Shown here in pieces: positions 13,710 through 46,331 of a stretch of DNA of 64,000 nucleotides. Position numbers and translations under genes: made by a program. Every line of letters begins with the position of its first letter. Position 1 is the stretch's first letter. The DNA is from Lachnospiraceae bacterium MC2017 (GTDB lineage: Bacteria; Bacillota; Clostridia; Lachnospirales; Lachnospiraceae). The stretch spans positions 1-64,000 of the forward strand of contig JNJK01000014.1 of assembly GCA_000701625.1 (NCBI GenBank). The letters run 5' to 3'. A model generated the notes under the pieces. It saw only the letters and a program-made list of their open reading frames with translations, did not search any database and was not told the origin of the DNA.

Positions 13710-14966
13710 TTAGGCAGCTACTTTTATTACATAAGGTATTTTGATAGACATGGGATCCAGTTCCATGTCTATCTTATTTTTATCCAGATACAGACGCAGG
13801 ATGTTATAAGCACCCACACAGTCTGCGTTCCATGTATTTATCCCGTCCCTGTACAGACCTCTGCATACACGGTTTGACTTCACCGCATGTATTTTATCTA
13901 CCTTTGGCATAAGAGGGCTTGTCTGACTTGAATACGCTTCGCACTGCCCGGCAAGAGTGATACCTTCCAACGCCAGCTTATATTTCAGCATAATGTAGAT
14001 TTTCCTGTAAGGGAGACTGTGTAGTTTCTGATTTGTAACTGCTCCAAAGTTCTTATCCTTGCGTATATTTGTGATATCACCGATCACAACTGTGTTGATA
14101 CTGTTACTGATGCAGTAGTTTACAATGGATCTTGTTACTTTATGCAGATAATCCAGAATTGCATCATTTTTCTTTTTGTACAGACGCAGCACATGCTTTG
14201 AGGGTTTCGGATATTTAACATCTTTCTTCACCTGTATCATCGCCCACTGTCCCTGCACTCTTGCAATCTCTTTATTGTAATAATGGCATAATGAGAGATA
14301 TTTTCTTCCGGCAATAAAAGTATTGCCGTCTGTATCATAGCAAGTCATAAGATTATGCAGTCCCATGTCGATAGACAGATATTTTCCGTTATCATCTAAT
14401 GCCTGAACGTCAGCTATCTCATAAATGACGATGACTTCGCAAAGTCCATTCTCCGGTGGATATATCTTTATCTGTTTAATGGCGTCAGTGTCCTTGAAAA
14501 TCTTATTTTCAAGAAACAGGTATTTGTCACTGATACCATAATTCTCAGACATATAAGACATTAACTGCCTTGGCAGTGATAACCGGATCATATGAGAACC
14601 GGGTTCATGCACGATCGCGTTCTGCATATAAGTTATGGCAATACCGTCATGTTTGAACCTTGGCGGCTTGGGATTTTCAATACCTTTGGATTTTTTCAAT
14701 GCGAAAAATGACTTCCAGGATTTGTCGAGGAGCTTACATACTTCCTGCGCTGTCTGAGAAGGAAGCTGCTTGAACCACATATCATCTTTATGAGCTTTTT
14801 TCTGATAATACCAATCAGGATAATCAACAGAAAGATTCAGTTCCTTATAATGAAGACGCTCATAATTGCAGACATTCCAGAGCTTGTAAGCGGCGTAACA
14901 CATATGACCAATGATGTTGGAATGATCGCTATTCAGTTTTATCCTGGTTTTATGCGACAACAGCAT
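13710..14966 (-). CDS. tnpB: TnpB RNA-guided nuclease (418 aa), variant RuvC
   Basis: ATG 14966 follows TTGAAGGAG. RuvC-I Asp is in YLSIDMGLHN (about 198) and RuvC-III Asp in WNADCVGAYNILR (near the end). At the RuvC-II position the usual ED is replaced by VVIGDITNIRKD; a Glu instead lies further on in QCEAYSSQTS. The zinc-finger CxxC pairs of classical TnpB are missing: that stretch reads SSQTSPLMPKVDK. This is a known TnpB branch with a relocated Glu. The protein should cut DNA using the adjacent RNA (family inference). Confidence 0.85.
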   Translation of the reverse strand: MLLSHKTRIKLNSDHSNIIGHMCYAAYKLWNVCNYERLHYKELNLSVDYPDWYYQKKAHKDDMWFKQLPSQTAQEVCKLLDKSWKSFFALKKSKGIENPKPPRFKHDGIAITYMQNAIVHEPGSHMIRLSLPRQLMSYMSENYGISDKYLFLENKIFKDTDAIKQIKIYPPENGLCEVIVIYEIADVQALDDNGKYLSIDMGLHNLMTCYDTDGNTFIAGRKYLSLCHYYNKEIARVQGQWAMIQVKKDVKYPKPSKHVLRLYKKKNDAILDYLHKVTRSIVNYCISNSINTVVIGDITNIRKDKNFGAVTNQKLHSLPYRKIYIMLKYKLALEGITLAGQCEAYSSQTSPLMPKVDKIHAVKSNRVCRGLYRDGINTWNADCVGAYNILRLYLDKNKIDMELDPMSIKIPYVIKVAA

Positions 14967-16138: not shown

Positions 16139-16185
16139 ATTTCACACCTCCATCCATTGATTCTTCTATGTGTAAGCCTATAATT

Positions 16186-16226
16186 ATGATACAATACAAA
16201 AAATTTATACGCAAGTATATTTGCGT
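16186..16226 (-). promoter_or_regulatory. Toxin-antitoxin promoter with palindromic operator
   Basis: On the minus strand, TTGCGT (16214-16209), 17 bases, then TATCAT (16191-16186). The palindrome ACGCAA-6-TTGCGT (16209-16226) overlaps the -35 box, and a further TTGCGTG lies at 16233-16239. This fits autorepression by the antitoxin. Confidence 0.7.
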
Positions 16227-16334
16227 GTTAATTTGCGTGCGTTATCATCCTTAATAATCTCGGGTGAAGAGGAAATTAGCAGGTTTACAGGAGATTTTCA
16301 AGTAATTTATTAAGCGATTGCCTTATTGTAGTGC

Positions 16335-16363
16335 TTGAGAAAATACCAACCAGATGATAATCT
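16335..16363 (+). promoter_or_regulatory. Promoter of type I toxin mRNA, copy 1
   Basis: TTGAGA (16335-16340), 17 bases, TAATCT (16358-16363). The leader that follows can fold (GCGCGACAGCGC; GGTGGCTGCC) and may hide the ribosome site GGGAGGTG before the toxin. The identical promoter recurs at 16765-16793. Confidence 0.65.
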
Positions 16364-16448
16364 AATTGTTGCGCGACAGCGCAGGAAAAGTATCCATGAC
16401 AGGGTGGCTGCCTCTCAGACTGACTAGAGCAGGAAGGGAGGTGACGAG

Positions 16449-16568
16449 ATGACAGATTACGAAATTATAATGGTAATGCTTGGAATCCTGGCATTAGTAA
16501 TTTCAACAAGTAGTTTGTTAATTGCGTTACTGAGCTTTCTCGACAAGAGAAACAACCGACGTAAATAA
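16449..16568 (+). CDS. Holin-like type I toxin peptide, copy 1 (39 aa)
   Basis: ATG 16449 after GGGAGGTG. The peptide is one hydrophobic segment (MTDYEIIMVMLGILALV, then SLLIALLSFL) with a charged tail (DKRNNRRK), matching the putative holin-like toxin family of type I toxin-antitoxin loci. Overproduction is expected to depolarise the membrane (family knowledge). The antisense RNA on the other strand overlaps its 3' region. It is nearly identical to the copy at 16879. Confidence 0.8.
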   Translation: MTDYEIIMVMLGILALVISTSSLLIALLSFLDKRNNRRK

Positions 16569-16664
16569 AAAATGCCTCTCCTGTCTGCCAACAGAAGAGG
16601 CGGCTCATGTAATGTGAGCTAAACATTTCCACGAGGCATCCACTTTGGAGTGGGTGCTTTTTCT
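16569..16664 (-). ncRNA. Antisense RNA antitoxin, copy 1
   Basis: Minus-strand promoter TTGAAT (16699-16694), 17 bases, TATATT (16676-16671), giving a start near 16664. The RNA would end at a hairpin (GCCTCTTCTGT/AGACAGGAGAGGC, about 16572-16600) followed by ATTTTTTATTT. It overlaps the toxin mRNA 3' region, as in txpA/ratA systems. The toxin mRNA itself ends at the plus-strand hairpin 16637-16662. Confidence 0.65.
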
Positions 16665-16764
16665 ATACTCAATATACCATCATACGGTTTTGGATTCAAT
16701 GTTAAAATAAAAGATCGTTGTAAGGCACTTATTAAGCAATCACCTAATATGGCGCTGATAAAGC

Positions 16765-16793
16765 TTGAGAAAATACCAACCAGATGATAATCT
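16765..16793 (+). promoter_or_regulatory. Promoter of type I toxin mRNA, copy 2
   Basis: TTGAGA (16765-16770), 17 bases, TAATCT (16788-16793), identical to copy 1. Confidence 0.65.
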
Positions 16794-16878
16794 AATTGAT
16801 GCGCGACAGCGCAGGAAAAGTATCCATGACAGGGTGGCTGCCTCTCAGACTGACTAGAGCAGGAAGGGAGGTGACGAG

Positions 16879-16998
16879 ATGACAGATTACGAAATCATAA
16901 TGGTAATGCTTGGAATCCTGGCATTATTGATTTCAAGCAGTAGTTTGTTAATTGCGTTACTGAGCTTTCTCGACAAGAGAAACGACAGACGTAAATAA
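16879..16998 (+). CDS. Holin-like type I toxin peptide, copy 2 (39 aa)
   Basis: ATG 16879 after GGGAGGTG. It differs from copy 1 at four residues (VIST becomes LISS; NN becomes ND). The approximately 380-bp unit including promoter, toxin, antisense RNA and terminator is a tandem duplicate of 16310-16700. Same predicted function as copy 1. Confidence 0.8.
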   Translation: MTDYEIIMVMLGILALLISSSSLLIALLSFLDKRNDRRK

Positions 16999-17093
16999 AA
17001 ATTGCCTCTCCTGTCTGCAAACGGGAGAGGCGGCTCATGTAATGTGAGCTAGAATCTCAACGAGGCATCCACTTTGGAGTGGGTGCTTTTTCT
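16999..17093 (-). ncRNA. Antisense RNA antitoxin, copy 2
   Basis: Minus-strand promoter TTTACT (17128-17123), 17 bases, TATATT (17105-17100). The terminator hairpin GCCTCTCCCGT... is followed by ATTTTTATTT. Whether the RNAs of the two copies cross-protect cannot be told from sequence. Confidence 0.6.
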
Positions 17094-17126
17094 ATATTCA
17101 ATATATCATTATACTGTTTTGGAGTA

Positions 17127-17159
17127 AAGCCCTAGAAAATCAATCTAGGGCTTTTTTAT
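17127..17159. terminator. Terminator hairpin (AAAGCCCTAGA type)
   Basis: AAAGCCCTAGA pairs with TCTAGGGCTTT, followed by T6 on the plus strand. It is placed between the toxin loci and the converging gene at 17184. Confidence 0.75.
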
Positions 17160-17183
17160 AGGTGTTCATTTTGAACACAGCTT

Positions 17184-18368
17184 TCATCGTTTCTTCATGA
17201 AGTAAATAACAGCGCCAATACCAATAAGTATTACAGAACCTCCGGCAACAGGGAAGATTGGGAAAGATGATTTTGGTTTCTCGTCCTGTGCAATCTCGGT
17301 TGCTTCTTCTGTCGGTGCAAGTGATGCTTCAATCTCTGTAGCCTGCTCTGTTGCAATGCTTTCAGCATAAGCCTTATTTAACTTTTCAACTTCGCTAATA
17401 ATATCCGTCTCTGAGATGTAGTAATCAATGGACAGCTCTGTTACTGCAAGATCAAGGAATCCATCTTTATCAGTTCTCTTTGAGGTAAAGTAGTCAAAGC
17501 CTTCCTCTGTCTTATTGAGAACGTAAACCTCATTGTCAGAAACACCTGTCTGAACTCTGAAAGTGCAGCCATTATCTGAGACAGTTCCTCCTGCGAATGA
17601 TACTTTATTTGCGCTTGCGGTTACTGTTTCACCGCTTTTAGCGGTTTCTGATATTTCAGTTTCTGAAATAGAAGCAGTAAGATCTACCGACGCATCATCT
17701 GGTCCAACATACTTATCGAAGATCCACTCATAGTCCACGCCGTCATCGGAGACAAAGGAGATCTTTATATCTTCGTTTTCCGAAGAGTTAAGCTCTTTTC
17801 CACTGATGATGTTCTCTGTTGAAGATGACTTTATGTTCAGATAAGCATTATCTGATATGTCATCGCTTAAGAAGTGATTCAGTGCAGAAATCGCTTTGTC
17901 ATTCAGAGAGTCAAAATCATGGGAATAATCAACAGTTGGCTTCTCTACTTCAGGAATGGTTTCTACTGAAGTGACCTCTGTCGGTGCAGCCTCGGGTGTT
18001 TTAACCGGTTCCGGTGTAGTCGGCGTTGACGATGTTGCTTCTGAAGTGGTCTGTGTTGGCGTCGAAGTCTGTGAATCAGAAGTAGTCTGTGTTGAAGTGG
18101 AAGCATTTTTACCATATTTATGTTCTGGATCGTAGAATTCGTCAGGATGAGATGTGCGATATGCAGATTCTGCACCAAGATATCCTGGAATTGCACCTGG
18201 CGCAGGAGCGCCTTCGGGAGTCATTGCCTTTTGAAATTCCTTTGCTTCTTCTGCCGATGGATAGCCATTTTCCCACGTATCCCAAATATCAGTAATCGAC
18301 ATAACAGTTCCTGCAGTCAGCGTTGTAGAAATAATAAGCGCAATAGCCAATTTATTTAAGTTTTTCAT
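17184..18368 (-). CDS. Secreted, C-terminally membrane-anchored protein, 394 aa
   Basis: Start ATG 18368 (GTGAGAGAA upstream); the frame runs to 18458 across the promoter region. A signal peptide (MKNLNKLAIALIISTTLTAG) leads a Pro/Ala-rich segment and a long Thr/Ser/Pro/Glu linker (residues about 95-150). Then come two beta-rich regions with SISETEISETAKSGETVTAS, and a C-terminal transmembrane helix (FPVAGGSVILIGIGAVIYF) with a KKR tail. No LPXTG motif. It is a cell-surface protein of unknown ligand. Its promoter region contains a perfect TTGTATACAA at 18410-18419, as does the divergent-facing surface protein gene at 19086. Confidence 0.75.
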   Translation of the reverse strand: MKNLNKLAIALIISTTLTAGTVMSITDIWDTWENGYPSAEEAKEFQKAMTPEGAPAPGAIPGYLGAESAYRTSHPDEFYDPEHKYGKNASTSTQTTSDSQTSTPTQTTSEATSSTPTTPEPVKTPEAAPTEVTSVETIPEVEKPTVDYSHDFDSLNDKAISALNHFLSDDISDNAYLNIKSSSTENIISGKELNSSENEDIKISFVSDDGVDYEWIFDKYVGPDDASVDLTASISETEISETAKSGETVTASANKVSFAGGTVSDNGCTFRVQTGVSDNEVYVLNKTEEGFDYFTSKRTDKDGFLDLAVTELSIDYYISETDIISEVEKLNKAYAESIATEQATEIEASLAPTEEATEIAQDEKPKSSFPIFPVAGGSVILIGIGAVIYFMKKR

Positions 18369-28419: not shown

Positions 28420-28600
28420 ATTATGGTTGTTTTTAGCGGTCAGCCATAATATACTAAGGCATAGAAACGAAAAACTTCAGTATTTCTTTTAATTATCGTC
28501 GGTGGACGCATACCCCCATACTGACGATTCTTGAAGGAAATACTGGAGTTTTTTTGTTTTTAAAAACTAGTAAAGGGAATTATCCCGGAAAGTGAGGAAA
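28420..28600 (+). promoter_or_regulatory. Promoter, operator-like repeat and attenuator leader
   Basis: TTGTTT (28427-28432), 17 bases, TATACT (28450-28455). ATTATGG (28420-28426) and CCATAAT (28444-28450) form an inverted repeat across it. AAACTTCAGTATTTC (28472-28486) pairs with GAAATACTGGAGTTT (28537-28551), 15 bp with one wobble, closing an inner ATCGTC/GACGAT hairpin and ending in T8. The last part (TAAAGGG..CCCGGAAAG..GAGG) is shared with the leader at 37930-37980. Confidence 0.7.
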
Positions 28601-28602
28601 AG

Positions 28603-28995
28603 ATGGCATTAAATGAAAGGAGAGCACTGATCAGAAAGGAATGCACTGAGCATTTTATCGCTGAGTTTTACTACGCACAAACAGTCGAACAGGAAATAAC
28701 TGTAAAACTGATCGTAAAAAAGATCGGTGGTTCCATCAAAGAATTTAGAATTGATGGAAATCACAGTGTTGTTGAAAGCATGGTGAAGGACTATGGCGAT
28801 AAGTATCTTTCCAGAGTGTTTTCATCGGAACTTTCAACTCTGTCCGTAGAAAATGGCTATGGACGGAACACATCGCATTCTGAGATAGCGATGAGCCGTG
28901 AGCAGTTGGCATTTTTGCGAGAACTTCTCGGACGTACACCAGAAAATAGTGCAGAAATCAATGCACTGAAAGATGTTCTGAGAAGCGCGGAATAG
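28603..28995 (+). CDS. Hypothetical protein, 130 aa
   Basis: ATG 28603 follows GTGAGGAAAAG. The soluble protein, starting ALNERRALIRKECTEHFIAEF, is rich in alternating beta/alpha, ending MSREQLAFLRELLGRTPE and a Glu/Asn/Ala-rich helix. It is the first gene behind the 28420-28600 leader and probably co-transcribed with 29021. No family recognised. Confidence 0.65.
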   Translation: MALNERRALIRKECTEHFIAEFYYAQTVEQEITVKLIVKKIGGSIKEFRIDGNHSVVESMVKDYGDKYLSRVFSSELSTLSVENGYGRNTSHSEIAMSREQLAFLRELLGRTPENSAEINALKDVLRSAE

Positions 28996-32025: not shown

Positions 32026-32140
32026 TTGAAATCAAGTTTATGATATATTATCATAAACTTACTTAACAAATTATTATCAGTCTTTCTTTTAACGATTTAT
32101 CCATAGGGGATATTTCTATTCAAAAGAAAGGCTGTTTTTT
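32026..32140 (+). promoter_or_regulatory. Promoter, 27-bp palindrome and attenuator leader
   Basis: TTGAAA (32026-32031), 17 bases, TATCAT (32049-32054). A perfect 27-bp palindrome (32034-32060, AAGTTTATGATA arms) overlaps the -10 and spacer, an operator candidate. Downstream, CAGTCTTTCTTTTA (32078-32091) pairs with CAAAAGAAAGGCTG (32121-32134), followed by T6 and an inner TATCC/GGATA hairpin. The next start is at 32186. Confidence 0.7.
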
Positions 32141-32185
32141 ATGCCTAAACGTCAGAATGACGTAAAGCAGGAAAGAGAGGAAAAG

Positions 32186-32524
32186 ATGAAAGTATTATGG
32201 TTTTCAAGGCACAAAATGACACCCGAGCAGATGGAAGCTCTCAGAGCGAAAGTCGGAGAGTTTGAACTTGTTCAAATTTCCAAGACTATTAACTCTGCGT
32301 TTGAGCTGAAAGATGAGGTTGAGGAGTGCGACGTAATTGCGATCGTTGCGCCGATCAACATCCAGTCACAGTTTCTGAAGATCGCAGGTGATAAGCCTGT
32401 GATCACAGCGCTCTCTCGAAGGGAGCTAATTAAGAAGGAGGACGGCGAGGACGAAGTAAAATTCGTTTTCGAAAAATGGCAACGTATCGAAAAGATAGAA
32501 GTTGTCATGTCCGATTTCTGTTAA
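32186..32524 (+). CDS. Hypothetical protein, 112 aa
   Basis: I chose ATG 32186 with AGAGAGGAAAAG upstream; the frame extends to ATG 32141, which follows the T-run directly. It begins MKVLWFSRHKMTPEQMEAL, a motif seen in many small mobile-element proteins, and continues in a compact alpha/beta fold (FELVQISKTI; VEECDVIAIVAPI; KIAGDKPVITALSRRELI). Function unknown. Confidence 0.65.
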   Translation: MKVLWFSRHKMTPEQMEALRAKVGEFELVQISKTINSAFELKDEVEECDVIAIVAPINIQSQFLKIAGDKPVITALSRRELIKKEDGEDEVKFVFEKWQRIEKIEVVMSDFC

Positions 32525-32728: not shown

Positions 32729-32968
32729 ATGCTATATTTGAAAAAGGAGCTCCTTGAAATAAAGGAGCAGATTATCGCTGAGATGTTCGAAATCGAGGCG
32801 GCCGCTATGAGTGGAATGCCCGCTGTTTCTAGAGATAATCTCGAGAAACACGAGTGGTACAAAAAACTCGATGAGCTCGCAGAACGCGTCGATGATGAGG
32901 ACCGTGCAGCGCAAATTGTCGGTTTTTCCGACAAAGATGCGGCATGGACCGCAATGATGTATTCGTAA
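32729..32968 (+). CDS. Hypothetical helical protein, 79 aa
   Basis: ATG 32729 has a strong site (AAGGAGGC). The all-helical small protein reads LYLKKELLEIKEQIIAEMFE, then a charged helix with HEWYKKLDELAERVDDEDRA, then FSDKDAAWTAM. No membrane segment. A terminator hairpin follows its end. No family recognised. Confidence 0.6.
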   Translation: MLYLKKELLEIKEQIIAEMFEIEAAAMSGMPAVSRDNLEKHEWYKKLDELAERVDDEDRAAQIVGFSDKDAAWTAMMYS

Positions 32969-32975
32969 GATATGA

Positions 32976-33011
32976 AATACAGGGTGTAGAGCTTGCTCTA
33001 CACCCTGTATT
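32976..33011 (+). terminator. Intrinsic terminator
   Basis: AATACAGGGTGTAGAGC pairs perfectly with GCTCTACACCCTGTATT around a two-base loop, followed by ACTTTT. Confidence 0.8.
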
Positions 33012-33027
33012 ACTTTTAAATTAAATA

Positions 33028-33141
33028 TTTACAAAAAAAAATAACCTGTTATAATAAAGACACTTAACAGATTAACTTCAGTCTTTCTTTTACGACATAT
33101 CCATGAGGGATGTGTTCATGTAAAGGAAGGGCTGTTTTTTT
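33028..33141 (+). promoter_or_regulatory. Promoter and attenuator-like leader of the large RNA
   Basis: TTTACA (33028-33033), 16 bases, TATAAT (33050-33055). CTTAACAGATTAACTTCAGT then leads into CAGTCTTTCTTTTAC (33079-33093), which pairs with GTAAAGGAAGGGCTG (33120-33134), around an inner ACATATCC/GGGATGTGT hairpin, with T7 at 33135-33141. The same kind of leader precedes protein genes at 32.1 and 37.9 kb, yet here no protein gene follows. Confidence 0.65.
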
Positions 33142-33715
33142 ATGTCTGAAAAGTCGTGGTGCTTGACCACCACGAAGTATGTGCTCATTCCAGGAGCATA
33201 TACAGAGGTAATCCATCCTCAGTACGCGAATAAAAGCTTATAAAGCGAATCGCCTCTGCAAGAAAAATGGATAGAACATTGCATAGTTCGAATCTTACAG
33301 GTCGAGATGTATCGGAGCTGGAATCCCGATGATCTATATGCAAAACTACATCTCAAAAAAGTCAAAGATATACTTTGAGTGGAAATAGCTGTTAGCTGCC
33401 GCACCTGAGCCGGAAGGTCGTTTCGAAAGAGACGGGGTGTTGGAGAGGGTTATTTCACTCTATATATGGGCTGATCACCATATATAGAACCGTTCAAAGT
33501 ATGTCTGCTAATACTCTCCCGTAAGGGACATCTGAAAAGGATGGATCAAAGAGTAAAAGCTGGGCGCTTAACCTCTTGCAGGAATATAATCCTGTGGGAG
33601 ATGAAATCTCTTGCGCCTCGTGGATACTCGTTTATCGGGTATCAGAGGCTTTACATATTCCCGTCGTCACCCGGTACGATAAAGGTACAGGATGATGGCG
33701 GGATTTTTTTATTAT
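33142..33715 (+). ncRNA. Large structured non-coding RNA (ROOL-like candidate)
   Basis: About 575 bases without a credible gene but dense in perfect stems: GTGGTG/CCACCAC (33156-33173), GTATGTGCTC/GAGCATATAC (33177-33203), CTATATATGG/CCATATATAG (33460-33487) and GATACTCG/CGGGTATC (about 33622-33644). TGCATA (33280-33285) pairs with TATGCA (33337-33342), and GAGATGTA (33304-33311) with TACATCTC (33347-33354), in the crossing order of a pseudoknot. The RNA ends in CCCGTCGTC/GATGATGGCGGG with inner GTAC/GTAC and a run of T (about 33660-33715). Size and host fit ROOL (Rumen-Originating, Ornate, Large), a known group of about 580-nt RNAs of Lachnospiraceae and mobile elements; OLE or GOLLD fit size less well. 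Structure is direct; the ROOL name is inference. Confidence 0.75.
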
Positions 33716-33727
33716 TACGATCATTAT

Positions 33728-33832
33728 AATTGTCCTATTAGCAAAGTTTTATATCGTTAGAGGACAAATATGACATGATTTTTGCGTCATAATTGTCCGC
33801 TAACATTATTTTTTACTGCTTAGAGGACAATT
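33728..33832. repeat. Two tandem copies of an inverted repeat (ATTGTCC...GGACAAT)
   Basis: Copy 1 (33728-33769) starts AATTGTCC and ends AGAGGACAAAT; copy 2 (33791-33832) starts AATTGTCC and ends AGAGGACAATT, each with 30 bases between the arms. TTAGAGGACAA occurs in both right arms. The pair lies between the large RNA and the promoter of gene 33949. They may be operators, a centromere or terminator-like elements. Confidence 0.55.
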
Positions 33833-33914
33833 ATAATTATTTTTAAAATATTTGTTCAAGAAAACATGCAAAAATCGTTGTTGATTTTGATATAAACGAC
33901 AGGGTAACATACGC

Positions 33915-33948: not shown

Positions 33949-35208
33949 TTGAACATAAATGATATTTTAAGACAGGGAAAAAGGCACGTTGTCTGTAAGG
34001 ACGGCCTAGAATTTGATATTAAACGGCTTGAAGACGGCCGGATTCTTATGCTGAATCAGACTATAAACGGAGAGCAGGTAAATAGCAAGGATTTCGGAAC
34101 TGCTATGAAGCTAAAAACAGCGGAAACTCTGGTGAGAAAAAAGCATCAGGGGGTTGTTGGCTTTGAATCTGTAGGATACGTGAATAAAGATAAAACCGGA
34201 ACAGATGATATAGCAATGGCTGAACCGGATGAAGATTTTTTAGAAGATGCAGACTTTGAAAATGAAGAGCAGCCTGCTTTCAATCTGAAGCAGATAATCC
34301 ATAGGACATACTATGACAGAGAAGATCTGACAAATGATGATGAGGATCCGACTGAGCAGATCTTTTATGATGAAATCAGCGATGAGGAAGAAGTAGAATA
34401 CGAAAATGTTGAAGAAGAGATCGAAATTGAGGAAGCCATAGAAGAAAACGACGGTGACGATGATCTGTTCATCGACTATGAGAAGGAAGCTGAAGAACAG
34501 GAAAAAGCTGATCAGCATGTAGATTCGCTTCGTGAAATCGAAGAACAGAAGAGAATAGAAAGAGTCAAAAAGCAGATCGCTGAAATGGAAGAGGTTCAGA
34601 GAGCACATCTGGAAAAAGAGCGTCTTGAAAAAAAGAAATCTGAACGTTCAGACATGATCCGTCAGGAAGCAGCAGACAGGCATGAATCAAAGAAGCAGGA
34701 GATTAAGCCGAAAGCAATAAAAGAACCTTCATATAAGAAAGTGGAAAAAGTCACACCGATAAGAAAGGAAGTAAGAAGCGTGAAGAAACATTACAATATC
34801 AACGAGCTTGTAGCAAAACTCAATGAGGTAATAAAGGGAAATATCTACAAGTGCGGTAACTGCGGAACGGAACTTGAGGTACACCTTGATGGAACACTCC
34901 AGTGCCACTCCTGCGGACAGGGCTATCTTAACAGTGAAAGTGTGGAGGCGTTAACCATGGTAGATCTGCTCGACAGGGATGTTGTGGCATCGACATATAT
35001 CATGTCAGATGGCTTCACCTATGAGTCCGGAAGAGCATATTTCCTCAGGGAAAACGGAATAGAACTTTATATCGACACTGATCTTCAGAGCATTGAAATG
35101 AAGGCTCCGGGAATGAATGATTCCCGTCCGATCATGAAAGCTGTTGTTACAGCAGTAGATAAATGGCTTAATAACAGATTTGAAATAGAAAAGAACGCAA
35201 TCCGATGA
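33949..35208 (+). CDS. Hypothetical zinc-ribbon protein, 419 aa
   Basis: Start TTG 33949 with CGGAGGG upstream. The N-terminal domain, about 80 residues, is beta-rich (VCKDGLEFDIKRLEDGRILM). An extremely acidic region (about 85-170) and a long charged coiled coil (about 175-290) follow. A zinc ribbon CGNCGTELEVHLDGTLQCHSCG-type (CxxC...CxxC, about 303-324) and a C-terminal alpha/beta domain complete it. GTGTATACAA lies upstream (33915). It could bind DNA or RNA polymerase (inference from the ribbon and acidic region). No family recognised. Confidence 0.65.
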   Translation: MNINDILRQGKRHVVCKDGLEFDIKRLEDGRILMLNQTINGEQVNSKDFGTAMKLKTAETLVRKKHQGVVGFESVGYVNKDKTGTDDIAMAEPDEDFLEDADFENEEQPAFNLKQIIHRTYYDREDLTNDDEDPTEQIFYDEISDEEEVEYENVEEEIEIEEAIEENDGDDDLFIDYEKEAEEQEKADQHVDSLREIEEQKRIERVKKQIAEMEEVQRAHLEKERLEKKKSERSDMIRQEAADRHESKKQEIKPKAIKEPSYKKVEKVTPIRKEVRSVKKHYNINELVAKLNEVIKGNIYKCGNCGTELEVHLDGTLQCHSCGQGYLNSESVEALTMVDLLDRDVVASTYIMSDGFTYESGRAYFLRENGIELYIDTDLQSIEMKAPGMNDSRPIMKAVVTAVDKWLNNRFEIEKNAIR

Positions 35209-35278: not shown

Positions 35279-37618
35279 ATGACGAAATCACACATACATA
35301 CGTACATATACAGATTTGTCATATGTATATTATTGATAATAAGTGGAATAGGTGCATTTGCAGCTAAGGCACATGCCGCAAATGATGCAACTAAGGGCAC
35401 CAGAGAGAAATATGGTCTGCTGATATATGATTATCCGACACCGGAAAAGGAAGGATATCAGTTTGCTGGCTGGTATACTGCGGCGAAGGGAGGGACAAAG
35501 ATCGATCCCGCTAAATGGACAACGCCGCTTGCCGCAAAAACAGATTATTATGCGCACTGGACGCCAAATTCATATAAGCTGACGGTAAATATCACAAACA
35601 ATCGTAATAAATCGCAGACAAATAATAATGGAAGCGATGTTAACGCAATAAAGGATGTTACTATCACAGCAACCAGAAAAGGTTCCTCTGATACAAGAAC
35701 ATATACTATTGCAAATGGCGGAACCTGTTATCTGAAGTTTGATGACGAAGTAACAGTTAAAGCGAATATGACGGATAGTTATACTCAGGGAGACTGGTTC
35801 TATCCGACAAGCACAGTTCGATATAAGGCAAGGCATAACATAAGCTTTGGAAGTTGGAAACTGACTCCGGCATCAAATTACCCGGCAAAGCCTGCACTGG
35901 CGAATGCTTCTTCATCCACAACGACATTCAAGTGGAATTGTACGAATTCTATCGTATTAAGCTGCAGTGGTACTGATACGACGAGTCAGACTGAGCATAT
36001 GGGTAAATTGACGGTAAATGTCACCAACAACCGGAATAAAACACAGACTGGAAATAAGGGTGATAACGTTGATGCTATAAAGAACGTTACTGTCACAGCA
36101 GTAAGAAAGAATAATACCGATAAACGTACTTACACACTTGCTAATGGTGAGTATGTATTCCTGAATTATGAAGACGTTGTATCAGTTAAGGCAAATATGA
36201 ATGCCGGTTATACTGAGAGCAGTTGGACAAATGGATCAGATACCTCTAAGTATAAGGTTAAGCATGATATTGCATTTAACAGCTGGCAGTTGAGCCCGTT
36301 GTCAACATCACCTGCAAAGCCTACTCTGGCAAATGCGGCAGCATCCTCAACTTCATTCACATGGGGCTGCAAGGAAGGAATCGTATTAAAATGTACAGGT
36401 ACTGATACGACAAGCCAGACTGAGAATATGGCTAAACTGACGATTAATATCACCAACAATCGAGATAAGTCACAGACTGGAAACAAGGGTGATAATGTTA
36501 ACGCAATAGATAAAGTTACTGTCACAGCAGTAAGAAGCAATAATACCGATAGACGTACATACACACTTGCTAATGGTGAATCAGTATTCTTGAAATATGA
36601 AGACGTTGTAACAGTTCAGGCAAACATGAATACCGGTTATACTGAGAGCAGTTGGACAATTGGATCAGCTACCTCTAAATATAAGGTTAAGCATGATATT
36701 GCCTTTAACGCTTGGGCAATGACCCTTATTTCAGGAACACCTGCACAGCCTAGACTGGCAAATGCGAGTGCATCAACAACTTCATTCACGTGGAGTTGCA
36801 CAGAAGGTATCGTATTAAAATGTACAGGTACTGATACGACAAGCCAGACAGAAAATATGGGTAAATTAACGGTAAATATCACGAACAATCGTGATAAATC
36901 ACAGACAGGAAACAACGGTGCGGATTGTGATGCGATACAGAATGTCACTGTCACAGCGATCAGAAGTGATAATACCGACAGCCGTACATATACTCTTGAA
37001 AACGGTGAGTCTGTATTCCTGAATTATGATGATGTTGTAACTGTTCAGGCAAATATGCATGAAAGTTATACTGAGGGCGACTGGATCAACACATCAAGTA
37101 CTTCTCGATATAAGATAGGACATAATATTACCTTTGATGGCTGGGAGCTGAATCCATTATCAACAACACCTGCAAGGCCATCGATGGCAAATGCGGCTAA
37201 TTCATCAGCTTCATTCACATGGAAATGCAAGGAAGGTATCGTATTAAACTGTAGCGGTACTGATACGACAAGTCAGGCTAATAAGCAGACTTATCATGAA
37301 TCAACATATACATACTTCCGCATTACAAACTCATTCCTTAGTTCAACTCCTCAACCTGCGAAGTTAGAAAGAGGTGAAACAAAAACTTGGAGATGGTACG
37401 CGGCAGATTGGGAATGTTATTATGATGGAGATGTGTTAACAGTTTATGGTGGTGTTCATGTTGATCATGAAAGAACCATTAGGGTAGAATGGGGACCTTC
37501 CGAGGATGGCCCTTGGTACGTTCCAAATGATCCAAATAACAACGACTGGTACTATACCGGTAAGGCAGGCAAAATAACAATTAAAACACATGCTCTTGGA
37601 AATGGAGGATGGTATTAA
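35279..37618 (+). CDS. Secreted protein with four tandem 142-residue repeats, 779 aa
   Basis: ATG 35279 (AGGGAAG upstream). Signal peptide (FVICILLIISGIGAFAAKAHA). Residues about 45-100 form a Listeria-Bacteroides-type repeat (EGYQFAGWYTAAKGGTKID). Four repeats of about 142 residues then start near nucleotides 35579, 36004, 36432 and 36859. Each begins KLTVNITNNR and ends SCSGTDTTSQ or KCTGTDTTSQ, with two Cys per repeat. A distinct 110-residue C-terminal domain ends GNGGWY. No LPXTG or membrane helix. It is likely an extracellular adhesin or cohesive protein. The repeats are similar at DNA level, so unequal recombination may change copy number. Confidence 0.75.
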   Translation: MTKSHIHTYIYRFVICILLIISGIGAFAAKAHAANDATKGTREKYGLLIYDYPTPEKEGYQFAGWYTAAKGGTKIDPAKWTTPLAAKTDYYAHWTPNSYKLTVNITNNRNKSQTNNNGSDVNAIKDVTITATRKGSSDTRTYTIANGGTCYLKFDDEVTVKANMTDSYTQGDWFYPTSTVRYKARHNISFGSWKLTPASNYPAKPALANASSSTTTFKWNCTNSIVLSCSGTDTTSQTEHMGKLTVNVTNNRNKTQTGNKGDNVDAIKNVTVTAVRKNNTDKRTYTLANGEYVFLNYEDVVSVKANMNAGYTESSWTNGSDTSKYKVKHDIAFNSWQLSPLSTSPAKPTLANAAASSTSFTWGCKEGIVLKCTGTDTTSQTENMAKLTINITNNRDKSQTGNKGDNVNAIDKVTVTAVRSNNTDRRTYTLANGESVFLKYEDVVTVQANMNTGYTESSWTIGSATSKYKVKHDIAFNAWAMTLISGTPAQPRLANASASTTSFTWSCTEGIVLKCTGTDTTSQTENMGKLTVNITNNRDKSQTGNNGADCDAIQNVTVTAIRSDNTDSRTYTLENGESVFLNYDDVVTVQANMHESYTEGDWINTSSTSRYKIGHNITFDGWELNPLSTTPARPSMANAANSSASFTWKCKEGIVLNCSGTDTTSQANKQTYHESTYTYFRITNSFLSSTPQPAKLERGETKTWRWYAADWECYYDGDVLTVYGGVHVDHERTIRVEWGPSEDGPWYVPNDPNNNDWYYTGKAGKITIKTHALGNGGWY

Positions 37619-37817: not shown

Positions 37818-37984
37818 TAAAATCACGTAGTATATACTTATCTCGTAAACGAAAGCTTCAGTATTACCTTCAACGAACGTCGGTGTTCATTATGAACACG
37901 GGCGATTTTTTATGGTAATGACTGGAGCTTTTTTATTTTTAAAAGCTTAGGTAAAGGGGAATGCCCCGGAAAGAGAGGTAAAAA
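37810..37984 (+). promoter_or_regulatory. Promoter and attenuator leader of gene 37985
   Basis: TTGTTT (37810-37815), 17 bases, TATACT (37833-37838). AGCTTCAGTATTACC (37854-37868) pairs with GGTAATGACTGGAGCT (37914-37929), enclosing GTGTTCAT/ATGAACAC followed by its own T-run; another T6 follows the outer stem. The 3' part (TAAAGGGGAATGCCCCGGAAAG then GAGG) is shared with the 28.5-kb leader, including the GGGG/CCCC hairpin. Confidence 0.7.
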
Positions 37985-38524
37985 ATGAACCTAGCTGTAA
38001 AAGGACGAGCGTTATATAACGTTCAAAGATGTCTTCATTTACCATCGGAGACACTTGTTCCGAAAACTGAGGAGCACGCAGCCGGAAAGTATCGTGTAGC
38101 AACGATCAAAAGTTTTAACTCGATCGCTGTTCAGCTCAAGGCTGATGTAAACGAGCTTCCGTATAGGAAGTTTGAGAACGCTTCAGAGCAGATCGAGTTC
38201 GATCAGTTCAGAAGTGAGCAGGCTCAGAACGTGATCGGCACAGCGATGTGTCTTTACGATCTGAAAAAAGAGCTCTCTGATGAAGAGCAGGACCGGCTTT
38301 TCGAAGACAGGTATGCAAAGGCTTATGCCGATGCAGTCACTGCGATCGAGAAGTTTGAATCTTCGCTCGAGAAAGAAGAGAAGAAGAAACAGAAGGACAA
38401 GGCATTCAAGGAGAAGATGGATGCCTTAAAAGCTAAATCCGCTTCAAAAAAAGCGGAGAAATCGTTAACAAAGATTGAAAATTACACCGAGCAAAGTGGA
38501 ACGAGCTTCGCTGCTGCGGTGTAA
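37985..38524 (+). CDS. Hypothetical protein, 179 aa
   Basis: ATG 37985 follows GAGAGGTAAAAA. Residues 1-75 are mixed alpha/beta (GKYRVATIKSFNSIAVQLKADV). The C-terminal half is a Lys/Glu-rich coiled coil (EKEEKKKQKDKAFKEKMD). Codon use resembles a cluster with 32186 and 32729 (CGAG-rich, frequent GATC), which share similar leaders. No family recognised. Confidence 0.65.
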   Translation: MNLAVKGRALYNVQRCLHLPSETLVPKTEEHAAGKYRVATIKSFNSIAVQLKADVNELPYRKFENASEQIEFDQFRSEQAQNVIGTAMCLYDLKKELSDEEQDRLFEDRYAKAYADAVTAIEKFESSLEKEEKKKQKDKAFKEKMDALKAKSASKKAEKSLTKIENYTEQSGTSFAAAV

Positions 38525-41809: not shown

Positions 41810-42355
41810 ATGAAAGAAATCAGAGAAGCAACAGCGGAAGAGATCGAAGAAGTTATGGATATACTTCCATACGCATTTGAAGAATGTGTAGATCAAATCG
41901 AAACTGTCGAACATGACAGGAATCGGTTTGAAGAATTTAAGAAGAATAACCGGATTGAAGAATCTGAGTACCTTTTTAAGGGTGCTTATAATCTGGAAGA
42001 GATTATCACATCAGGAGGACTTGATGTTGAGAAATCTCATAACGGTGGAACATATACCACCGGAAAAGGAATCTACCTTGCGGATGATCCTATGCTGGCA
42101 CTTTCCTACGCTGACAAGAAATTCATAATCGTTGAAACGGCTGTGAATTGGAAAGAAATAGTGAAGGAAGGCAAAACCAATAATCCTCATGATGTTGAAG
42201 AACTTCGTAAAGAAGGATTCAGCGGACTATTAATGCAGGACTATGGGGAAGACCAGCATGAAAATGAGCGCATCGTTTTTGAGAATGATGCAATGCTTAT
42301 AAGATATATTGTCAAAATGAAGAATATGCCTCCGATATATGAGAGGCCAAAATAG
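41810..42355 (+). CDS. PARP/ART-fold ADP-ribosyltransferase-like protein, 181 aa
   Basis: ATG 41810. Residues about 50-80 read YLFKGAYNLEEIITSGGLDV (position of the HGT-type NAD site), then GTYTTGKGIYLADDPMLALSYA (the G-x-Y-L-A-D...A..YA pattern of PARP-like ART folds), and near the end NERIVFENDAMLIRYIVKM (position of the catalytic Glu strand). The usual His of HGT is replaced (FKG), so activity is uncertain. An upstream hairpin and missing ribosome site suggest tight translational control, fitting a toxic enzyme. Fold call is moderate. Confidence 0.55.
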   Translation: MKEIREATAEEIEEVMDILPYAFEECVDQIETVEHDRNRFEEFKKNNRIEESEYLFKGAYNLEEIITSGGLDVEKSHNGGTYTTGKGIYLADDPMLALSYADKKFIIVETAVNWKEIVKEGKTNNPHDVEELRKEGFSGLLMQDYGEDQHENERIVFENDAMLIRYIVKMKNMPPIYERPK

Positions 42356-44969: not shown

Positions 44970-46331
44970 TCAGGCAACCCTTATTCTTATAGGCGTGTCC
45001 ACATCGCCTCTACCGTATAGGATACTAAGATCCACAACGCTACTTTTACGCATGATATTTAATGCTCCATTAACATCGGCATTAAAACAAAAGCCACTGG
45101 CAGTTTTATACATTCCACGATGTATTCTTTTACCACTGAACTGATACTCTTTTGGATTGTCGTTATTATATACAGGAATATAATCTTTATCCCAAAATGA
45201 TGCCTTTGACGTATAGCTTTCTTCCTGTTCAACATAAGTAATACCATTAAGTTCACAAAGGTATGACAATTTATCTCTTAACAGCCCATAAGGGATATTA
45301 ACGAAATTCTGATTTCTCTGTTTACCCATATGTGAACTTCTCTGAAATGTAACATTATATCCAGCTACAAGAGTTCCAATATCATTAGTAATACAGTAAT
45401 CTATAACCTTACGTGCAACCTTACTCATATAATCATTTATCTTATTATTACGATCACGAGCTATGGCTTTCTGGCGGTTCGTAGTTTTTCTACAAAAATG
45501 CTGCTTATCTTTAATAGACTGCAAACGAGCATTTTCTTTATTGAACCACTGGTTTATGGATTTAAGTCTTTTTCCATCAATTATAAATGACTTTCCGGTA
45601 TTTGATACTGCAGTTACGAGATTATTTATACCAAGATCGAGCGCCAGTGCATTGTTTTTGTTAAGATTTCTTTGAATACATTCAGCTTCATAAGTGTACT
45701 GAATTTCAAAGAACCTGGCATGAGCTTTTGGTATGATACGTATCTCTTTAACTTTTTTATCAAGTAAAATTGGCGGAATCTTAATTTCAACAGGCTTATG
45801 AGTTTTCTTAAAGCTGTTTGAAAATGGAAGTATCAGCTTATTTCCATTAAGTCTTACAAATCCAATAACAAGTGTAGTATATCCGTCTTTTGGAAGATAA
45901 TTTGGAAGTTTACAGTCCTTAAAAGCATACTTACCCTGTTTGGCAAGTTTAAGTAGTCCAAAAAATGACTTAAAACTACCATCTACTTCTTTGAGGATCT
46001 GCTGTGCCATATTTGAATTTAATGTCTTGTAATTATGGCTATTCTTTAAGAGAGCATAATTCTTTTCGTATTTCAAGAATTTACTCTCAGTAAAGTAATA
46101 CTGTCTTACATTATAAATAGCTTCATTAGCCAGATTTTTAGCAGCATGGCACAATTCTTTTATAGAACGATAATCTTCTTTGGACAGATGTTTTACCTGT
46201 TGTTTTACAGTAAGATACACATAACTATTTCCTTTCATAAGACTCGGATTGCTCCTGTATGTATATTGTATCATATATTTTACCGAAAGTATAGTATTAT
46301 AGTAAAATACAGATACATTAAAAAAGACCAA
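44970..46331 (-). CDS. tnpB: TnpB RNA-guided nuclease (about 450 aa), variant RuvC
   Basis: The frame runs to 46331; an internal ATG at 46238 (MKGNSYVYLTVKQQVKHLSK) fits the family start better, with the upstream part covering the left end. RuvC-I Asp is in ALALDLGINN and RuvC-III in FNADVNGALNIMRK. At the RuvC-II site the family Glu is missing (GTLVAGYN), and a Glu appears later in EQEESYTSKASF. There are no CxxC zinc pairs. It is only distantly related to the TnpB at 13710 but shares the same rearrangement. Confidence 0.8.
   Translation of the reverse strand: MVFFNVSVFYYNTILSVKYMIQYTYRSNPSLMKGNSYVYLTVKQQVKHLSKEDYRSIKELCHAAKNLANEAIYNVRQYYFTESKFLKYEKNYALLKNSHNYKTLNSNMAQQILKEVDGSFKSFFGLLKLAKQGKYAFKDCKLPNYLPKDGYTTLVIGFVRLNGNKLILPFSNSFKKTHKPVEIKIPPILLDKKVKEIRIIPKAHARFFEIQYTYEAECIQRNLNKNNALALDLGINNLVTAVSNTGKSFIIDGKRLKSINQWFNKENARLQSIKDKQHFCRKTTNRQKAIARDRNNKINDYMSKVARKVIDYCITNDIGTLVAGYNVTFQRSSHMGKQRNQNFVNIPYGLLRDKLSYLCELNGITYVEQEESYTSKASFWDKDYIPVYNNDNPKEYQFSGKRIHRGMYKTASGFCFNADVNGALNIMRKSSVVDLSILYGRGDVDTPIRIRVA

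Follow-up and report, generated by a model that had tools for sequence, protein, structure and literature searches.

Few natural RNAs as large and complex as ROOL, GOLLD and OLE have been characterised, and in the part of a 2025 cryo-EM paper on which we draw, their functions are described as poorly understood (PMC12286853). The same part reports that ROOL and GOLLD form RNA cages, that ROOL often lies near tRNA islands in phages and prophages, and that GOLLD is a large ornate multi-domain RNA of mobile elements with many members longer than 800 nt; it leaves undecided whether large natural RNAs commonly form cages (PMC12286853). In the excerpted text of a second paper, OLE is a single large RNA of about 610 nt, and deletion of an RNA from an L. 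salivarius megaplasmid lowered the megaplasmid copy number, perhaps indirectly (PMC5643018).

Here we describe a candidate RNA gene in a DNA stretch of 64,000 nucleotides (the window) at the start of a contig of 102,815 bases. The RNA body is 574 nt long and has a computed fold with a z score of -8.29, in keeping with the 550-660 nt and extensive secondary structure of ROOL. It resembles ROOL (RF03087) in length class (the model has 574 positions), in its elaborate computed fold and in its location on mobile DNA; the L. salivarius ROOL is located on a megaplasmid. It differs in that no tRNA was found on the 102.8-kb contig (window and remainder), whereas ROOL is often, but not always, near tRNA islands, and in that an attenuator-like leader common with a protein gene belongs to the RNA here. 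Like GOLLD it is a large ornate multi-domain candidate on a mobile element, but at about 575 nt it is shorter than many GOLLD members, and like OLE it would be a single large RNA of similar size. On balance, we lean towards an independently transcribed, attenuator-gated, trans-acting large structured RNA of a conjugative element, which would work in the manner of ROOL and GOLLD without being a member of either family.

The Element and Its Other Features

Homologues of PcfK and PcfJ were encoded on the contig, and a VirD4-like coupling protein of the CD1115 family was found above the cut-off. RecD2 and a TadA-like ATPase were encoded on the contig, the latter below its curated cut-off. Relatives of the TadA-like ATPase were present in 26 of 245 genomes, including its own, and distant relatives of PcfJ in 7 of 48 genomes of the genus (own included) and in 556 plasmid records. 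From its gene content, the replicon is taken for a putative conjugative plasmid or integrative element; as a guess, its host would be a Lachnospiraceae bacterium of rumen or gut.

The element also encodes a DNA polymerase III alpha subunit at contig positions 90120-93578 (L014:6120-9578), with a relative of 46% identity on a 101-kb contig (G076:C1, L126). A tandem duplication at 16449-16568 and 16879-16998, within a strongly structured 1-kb gap, encodes two hydrophobic peptides of 39 aa that are almost identical and have a charged tail; we take them to resemble type I toxin peptides with an antisense RNA. A 779-aa protein at 35279-37618 has four repeats spaced 429 bases (143 aa) with a List_Bact_rpt domain, and in our reading is surface-protein-like. 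The 181-aa protein at 41810-42355 matched a PARP catalytic domain with 32.8 bits (cut-off 26.7). Two TnpB-like proteins (OrfB_IS605 and Cas12f1-like_TNB matches) are encoded on the minus strand at 13710-14966 and 44970-46331, and no link to the RNA was seen.

Gene Content and Base Composition of the Locus

The RNA body lies between a 79-aa ORF (32729-32968) and a 419-aa ORF (33949-35208), together with the following features:

32976-33011, plus strand: 16-bp terminator-like hairpin closing the preceding unit with the 79-aa ORF, from the simple terminator scan
33142-33715, plus strand: body of the predicted structured non-coding RNA, with a strong computed fold and no Rfam family; predicted transcript end at about 33710
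33726-33837, no strand assigned: four alternating inverted operator- or iteron-like motif copies (around AGGACAATTAT) from a motif scan, just 3' of the RNA terminator

A preliminary description, made from the letters of the DNA, had called 33142-33715 gene-free and highly structured. The first point held, as all three plus-strand frames contain stops, the four overlapping ORFs of at least 50 aa reach only 50-62 aa, and the codon-statistics gap finder left 32963-33867 uncovered. The GC content of the body was 43.6%, compared with 39.4% for the contig, 26.4% and 29.6% for the preceding and following spacers, and 26.6-39.9% for 12 other intergenic gaps chosen by hand. Long GC-rich intergenic regions are where a published pipeline hunts for structured RNAs, according to the portion of that paper used here (PMC8723152). 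Lying behind the RNA terminator and ahead of the 419-aa gene, the four motif copies resemble a set of operators or iterons. Only at this place on the contig do four copies stand so close; ten looser copies (at most two mismatches) are spread over the rest of it, including a pair separated by 51 bases (63715 and 63766).

Predicted Transcript and Shared Leader

Signals for a transcription unit were located on both sides of the body:

33028-33055, plus strand: promoter TTTACA-16-TATAAT with TG before the -10 box (extended -10), 11 of 12 consensus matches
33060-33141, plus strand: leader with a 15-bp lower stem (33079-33093/33120-33134) and an apical hairpin, then T7, from its fold and a sister copy
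33659-33710, plus strand: intrinsic terminator with an 11-bp base stem and T7, -26.7 kcal/mol

Counting both strands, the contig has seven sites that match the consensus at 11 or more of 12 positions, this promoter among them, and such a site arose in 1.2% of 1000 shuffles of the 173-nt upstream stretch (plus strand). A promoter in front and a strong terminator at the end had both been proposed. The near-consensus promoter exists, but it does not stand directly before 33142, with a leader of about 80 nt in between; the terminator was borne out, its stem occupying 33659-33703 and its T7 33704-33710. The leader, which the earlier reading overlooked, forms a hairpin of -29.6 kcal/mol before its T-run and looks like an intrinsic terminator or attenuator. 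The simple terminator scan reports neither this hairpin nor the 3' terminator, and both rest on folds and T-runs. Because the leader resembles a terminator, most transcripts may end at about 33141, which counts against the RNA-gene reading; a read-through transcript would run from about 33062 to 33710, roughly 650 nt. The RNA-gene reading is supported by a promoter among the seven best of the contig and by terminator-like hairpins on both sides; the GC content of the body, the leader in common with a protein gene and the putative conjugative setting also speak for it.

About 1 kb upstream there is a second copy of the sequence that runs from the -10 box through the T-run, and related leaders were found before further genes:

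32059-32140, plus strand: sister copy of the 33060-33141 leader (94 nt aligned at 78% identity), ahead of the protein gene with listed coordinates 32141-32524
28462-28560, plus strand: related leader hairpin and T-run before the ORF at 28603 (R3, 25.4 bits, E 0.017)
37845-37940, plus strand: related leader hairpin and T-run before the ORF at 37985, from sequence and fold; missed by R3 at E <= 5

The protein gene listed at 32141 likely starts at 32186, after a ribosome-binding site. R3 is a model of the close leader pair (33060 and 32059), and the 111.1 bits of the sister copy are high by construction. Over 59 stretches (the window, the rest of the contig and related elements), R3 gave 13 matches at E <= 5; the best plus-strand match past the two source copies was the leader at 28459 (E 0.017), and the best match in a related element had an E value of 0.089. 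Among the 48 genus genomes, R3 matched two, its own and one other with a weak match (E 0.005). The anatomy of this leader family (promoter, terminator-like hairpin and T-run) was thus found in several transcription units. Since the RNA gene and protein genes of the element have the leader in common, they are probably under common control, the likeliest form of which is early termination relieved by leaky or regulated read-through. It is possible that the leaders at 28462-28560, 32059-32140, 33060-33141 and 37845-37940 form an attenuation regulon of the element.

The same arrangement would suit a long cis-acting leader, with tandem attenuators or a riboswitch-like fold, controlling the downstream 419-aa gene at 33949. 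The structure is on the same strand as this ORF, it is a structured leader with terminators upstream of it, and competing pairings could serve as a switch; however, a strong terminator ends the unit at 33710, the ORF begins only some 240 nt further on, past AT-rich DNA that contains four operator-like sites, and leaders elsewhere on the element measure about 80-100 nt. We consider cis control of the 419-aa gene unlikely.

Computed Structure of the RNA Body

The minimum free energy of 33142-33715 was -205.2 kcal/mol, compared with a shuffle mean of -153.4 kcal/mol (sd 6.3), and none of 100 dinucleotide shuffles was as good. The z score was -6.97 without the terminator and -5.23 when the subregion 33203-33656 was folded alone, so the terminator alone is insufficient to account for the strength of the fold. 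The computed structure is therefore above chance, and the proposal of a highly structured region was upheld. The 59 stretches contain 62 gaps with a length of 380 nt or more, and by fold score the gap that holds the RNA came fourth. The predicted structure has the following parts:

33154-33203, plus strand: two stable 5' hairpins (33154-33161/33168-33175 and 33177-33186/33194-33203), mean pair probabilities 0.97-1.0
33274-33354, plus strand: candidate pseudoknot of complementary strings, 33279-33285/33337-33343 (7 bp) crossing 33304-33311/33347-33354 (8 bp)
33366-33506, plus strand: central branched domain, mean pair probabilities 0.93-0.99, with a long stem (33366-33381/33491-33506), a second stem (33382-33390/33448-33456), two GNRA-capped hairpins (GGAA and GAAA) and an 11-bp hairpin (33459-33469/33478-33488) whose loop contains the self-complementary UGAUCA
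33512-33649, plus strand: 3' domain with a GUAA-capped hairpin (33518-33520/33525-33527) and the stems 33573-33583/33590-33600 and 33623-33630/33636-33643, mean pair probabilities 0.99, 0.81 and 0.96, respectively

Three hairpins of the minimum free energy fold are capped by GNRA tetraloops. Of 200 shuffles, 170 had no such hairpin, 27 had one, 3 had two and none had three; this feature was picked after the fold was known, and it is supportive and not a planned test. The pseudoknot had been described from the pairing of TTGCATA (33279-33285) with TATGCAA (33337-33343) and of GAGATGTA (33304-33311) with TACATCTC (33347-33354). These strings exist and interleave, but an equivalent crossing pair occurred in 14.6% of 500 shuffles, so that chance could account for the pseudoknot. 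Local pairs compete with a possible long-range helix of 9 bp (33211-33219/33538-33546). The partition function favours neither this nor other long-range helices and prefers local pairs such as 33205-33208/33217-33220, 33529-33533/33539-33543 and 33615-33619/33645-33649, a point against the RNA-gene reading. A kissing loop through the UGAUCA in the loop at 33470-33477 was considered and rejected, as UGAUCA recurs 48 times on the contig and is not significant.

The complementary strand of 33142-33715 also folded above chance (z -5.71), but more weakly than the plus strand (-8.29). The complement of any set of stems also folds above chance. G-U pairs made up 22 of 183 pairs in the plus-strand fold and 11 of 173 in the minus-strand fold, and A/C mismatches were found in one of four and five of seven 1x1 loops, respectively; the numbers are small in both comparisons. 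More G-U pairs and fewer A/C mismatches are expected if the plus-strand RNA is the selected molecule. A count over the ten long helices, with eight G-U against four A/C, makes this strand argument mixed. Against it, the best 500-nt window of the wider gap scored -11.3 on the minus strand and -8.4 on the plus strand (8 shuffles each); the best minus-strand window, 33368-33867, takes in the inverted-motif cluster 3' of the RNA.

The hairpins could instead act at the level of DNA, as a single-strand origin, as an oriT-type or leading-region element, or as a replication or partition site by the cluster at 33726-33837. The conjugative nature of the element would fit, as would hairpins next to four alternating inverted motif copies in 112 bases and the minus-strand window with the motif cluster, which folds best in the wider gap. 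The body itself, however, folds better as plus-strand RNA than as its complement and with more G-U pairs, a promoter and a terminator indicate transcription, and the cumulative GC skew of the contig has no turning point at 33 kb. We give a DNA-level role a low probability.

Search for Relatives of the RNA

In blastn searches of phages and plasmids, no homologue was found at 1e-5, and at E <= 10 eight phage records gave pieces of 20-34 nt only and plasmids gave none. DNA searches were carried out in genus, family and order sets, which overlap and in which candidates were scored for up to 12 (genus) or 2 (family, order) per genome. Besides its own genome, the RNA gave only a 25-nt match at the 3' terminator end in the 48 genus genomes, nothing in the 397 family genomes, and pieces of 20-34 nt in 10 of the 392 order genomes. 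Four of these ten pieces were read in translation, and all four lay in long open frames; one of these four (L171) extended to 74 nt at 73% identity under lenient gap costs.

Two single-sequence structural models were also used, R1 of 33362-33508 and R2 of 33507-33656; the structure of R2 was assigned manually, and one of its helices, 33562-33567/33613-33618, is not favoured by the partition function. Over the 59 stretches, related elements included, R1 and R2 found themselves and four R2 matches at E 1.2-3.7, and over 345 genomes each they found only themselves. When nine of the ten order-genome loci and the locus of the weak R3 match were rescanned with both models, the best E value was 0.12. 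All 56 stretches from elements related by the TadA-like ATPase are among the 59 sources scanned, and nhmmer detected no copy of the RNA in the first 36 of these 56. Six exact 16-mers of the RNA occurred in 44, 36, 25, 4, 6 and 2 viral contigs, respectively, with no aligned piece longer than 29 nt among the best 30 and 15 lines and nothing found by nhmmer. One 20-mer had a single Flavobacterium match in genome contigs, without extension. No relative of the neighbouring 419-aa protein turned up in viral contigs, plasmids or the 47 remaining genus genomes, the 112-aa neighbour had none in viral contigs or plasmids, and the 12 kb around the RNA gave no megablast match to plasmids.

These searches cover a small part of known diversity, and far-diverged relatives would escape them. 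A new large RNA class, the fallback of the preliminary description, would call for several homologues with covarying paired positions. Because no homologue was found, no class can be declared, and any claim to a class suffers above all from this lack of relatives. The searches gave no sign of long-term conservation, and an orphan RNA could be a recent chance structure. For comparison, the folds of six other structured gaps were inspected, for one of them with both strands folded. Those of four gaps in related elements have the look of long palindromes or of repeats of transposon type; a fifth gap (L120) holds a tRNA, and a tandem duplication makes up the sixth, at window positions 16142-17204.

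A decaying or chance structured remnant between genes, for example of a transposon or intron and without present function, would agree with the orphan state of the sequence across the genus, family and order genomes, phages, plasmids and related tad-type elements, and three other gaps of related elements have stronger fold scores. Against this, the body consists of many independent stems, in contrast to the single long palindrome type of four of the six inspected gaps, it has its own promoter and terminator as well as GNRA loops, and no Rfam intron match was found in the window. We likewise give a remnant a low probability.

Comparison with ROOL, GOLLD and OLE

The structured RNA gene that we prefer was compared with known families. 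With Rfam 15, neither the window nor the remaining contig yielded a match that passed the gathering thresholds, and none of the 4227 families matched 33120-33740 at E <= 10. As a positive control, the same search was run on pMP118 of L. salivarius, whose divergent ROOL scored 130.4 bits with an E value of 1.1e-27. We take the L. salivarius RNA of the deletion study to be the ROOL identified here by this Rfam match. The preliminary description had suggested a large ROOL-like RNA gene and had named the Rfam search as its check. A structured RNA gene with promoter and terminator is supported, but identity with ROOL was rejected, as no covariance-model match to RF03087 appeared at E <= 10 while the control scored well. 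GOLLD (model and conserved 3' domain) and OLE likewise gave no Rfam match at E <= 10, each without a separate positive control. ROOL was found in none of the 48 genus genomes, a weak result, as none of 14 control genomes matched either. Among the matches listed from the open-licence literature, no title described the RNA at 33142-33715.

Around the region, 20 sub-threshold Rfam matches (MicC, miRNA precursors, snoRNA and others) were recorded, all under their own cut-offs. They sit on the flanks; two of them overlap 33142-33715, one by 6 bases at its start and the other by a single base at its end. The best of them, a microRNA model on the downstream inverted motifs (E 0.0018), was below its cut-off and was disregarded.

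A very divergent ROOL (or GOLLD or OLE) that escapes the Rfam models would explain the similar length and the large mobile replicon, as for the L. salivarius ROOL, but it is most improbable given that the divergent control was detected while no family matched here, and that the contig has no tRNAs where ROOL is often near tRNA islands (PMC12286853).

Discussion

We favour an independently transcribed, leader-gated RNA that acts in trans, with the following course of events predicted from the locus. RNA polymerase would start near 33062 and meet the terminator-like leader hairpin, which would be passed by leakage or under an antitermination control encoded by the element and common with at least one protein gene. 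After read-through, the body of about 570 nt would be made and stopped at 33710. Its fold would be compact, with a pair of hairpins at the 5' end, a central domain that branches and bears GNRA loops, a 3' domain, and possible long-range and pseudoknot pairings; the folded body would act in trans as RNA. Its role would most likely be that of a scaffold or self-assembling particle, or of a regulator of maintenance or transfer of the element, analogous to ROOL and GOLLD but unrelated to them. The ROOL cage is octameric. Oligomerisation and a role in maintenance are speculative for the RNA described here. The nearest functional precedent is the L. salivarius ROOL with its effect on copy number upon deletion, and the same action here would be speculation.

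The RNA may also be the first representative of a new class, made up of large, ornate and perhaps self-assembling RNAs that conjugative elements carry and that are leader-gated together with protein genes; we consider this tentative proposal possible but doubtful. If it is true, a non-coding RNA would be wired into a plasmid regulon. If the favoured reading is true, the RNA would provide an independent test case, being unrelated to the known ones yet similar in size, carried by a conjugative element and transcribed from a regulated promoter of its own, and large RNAs would be tied to the biology of mobile elements.
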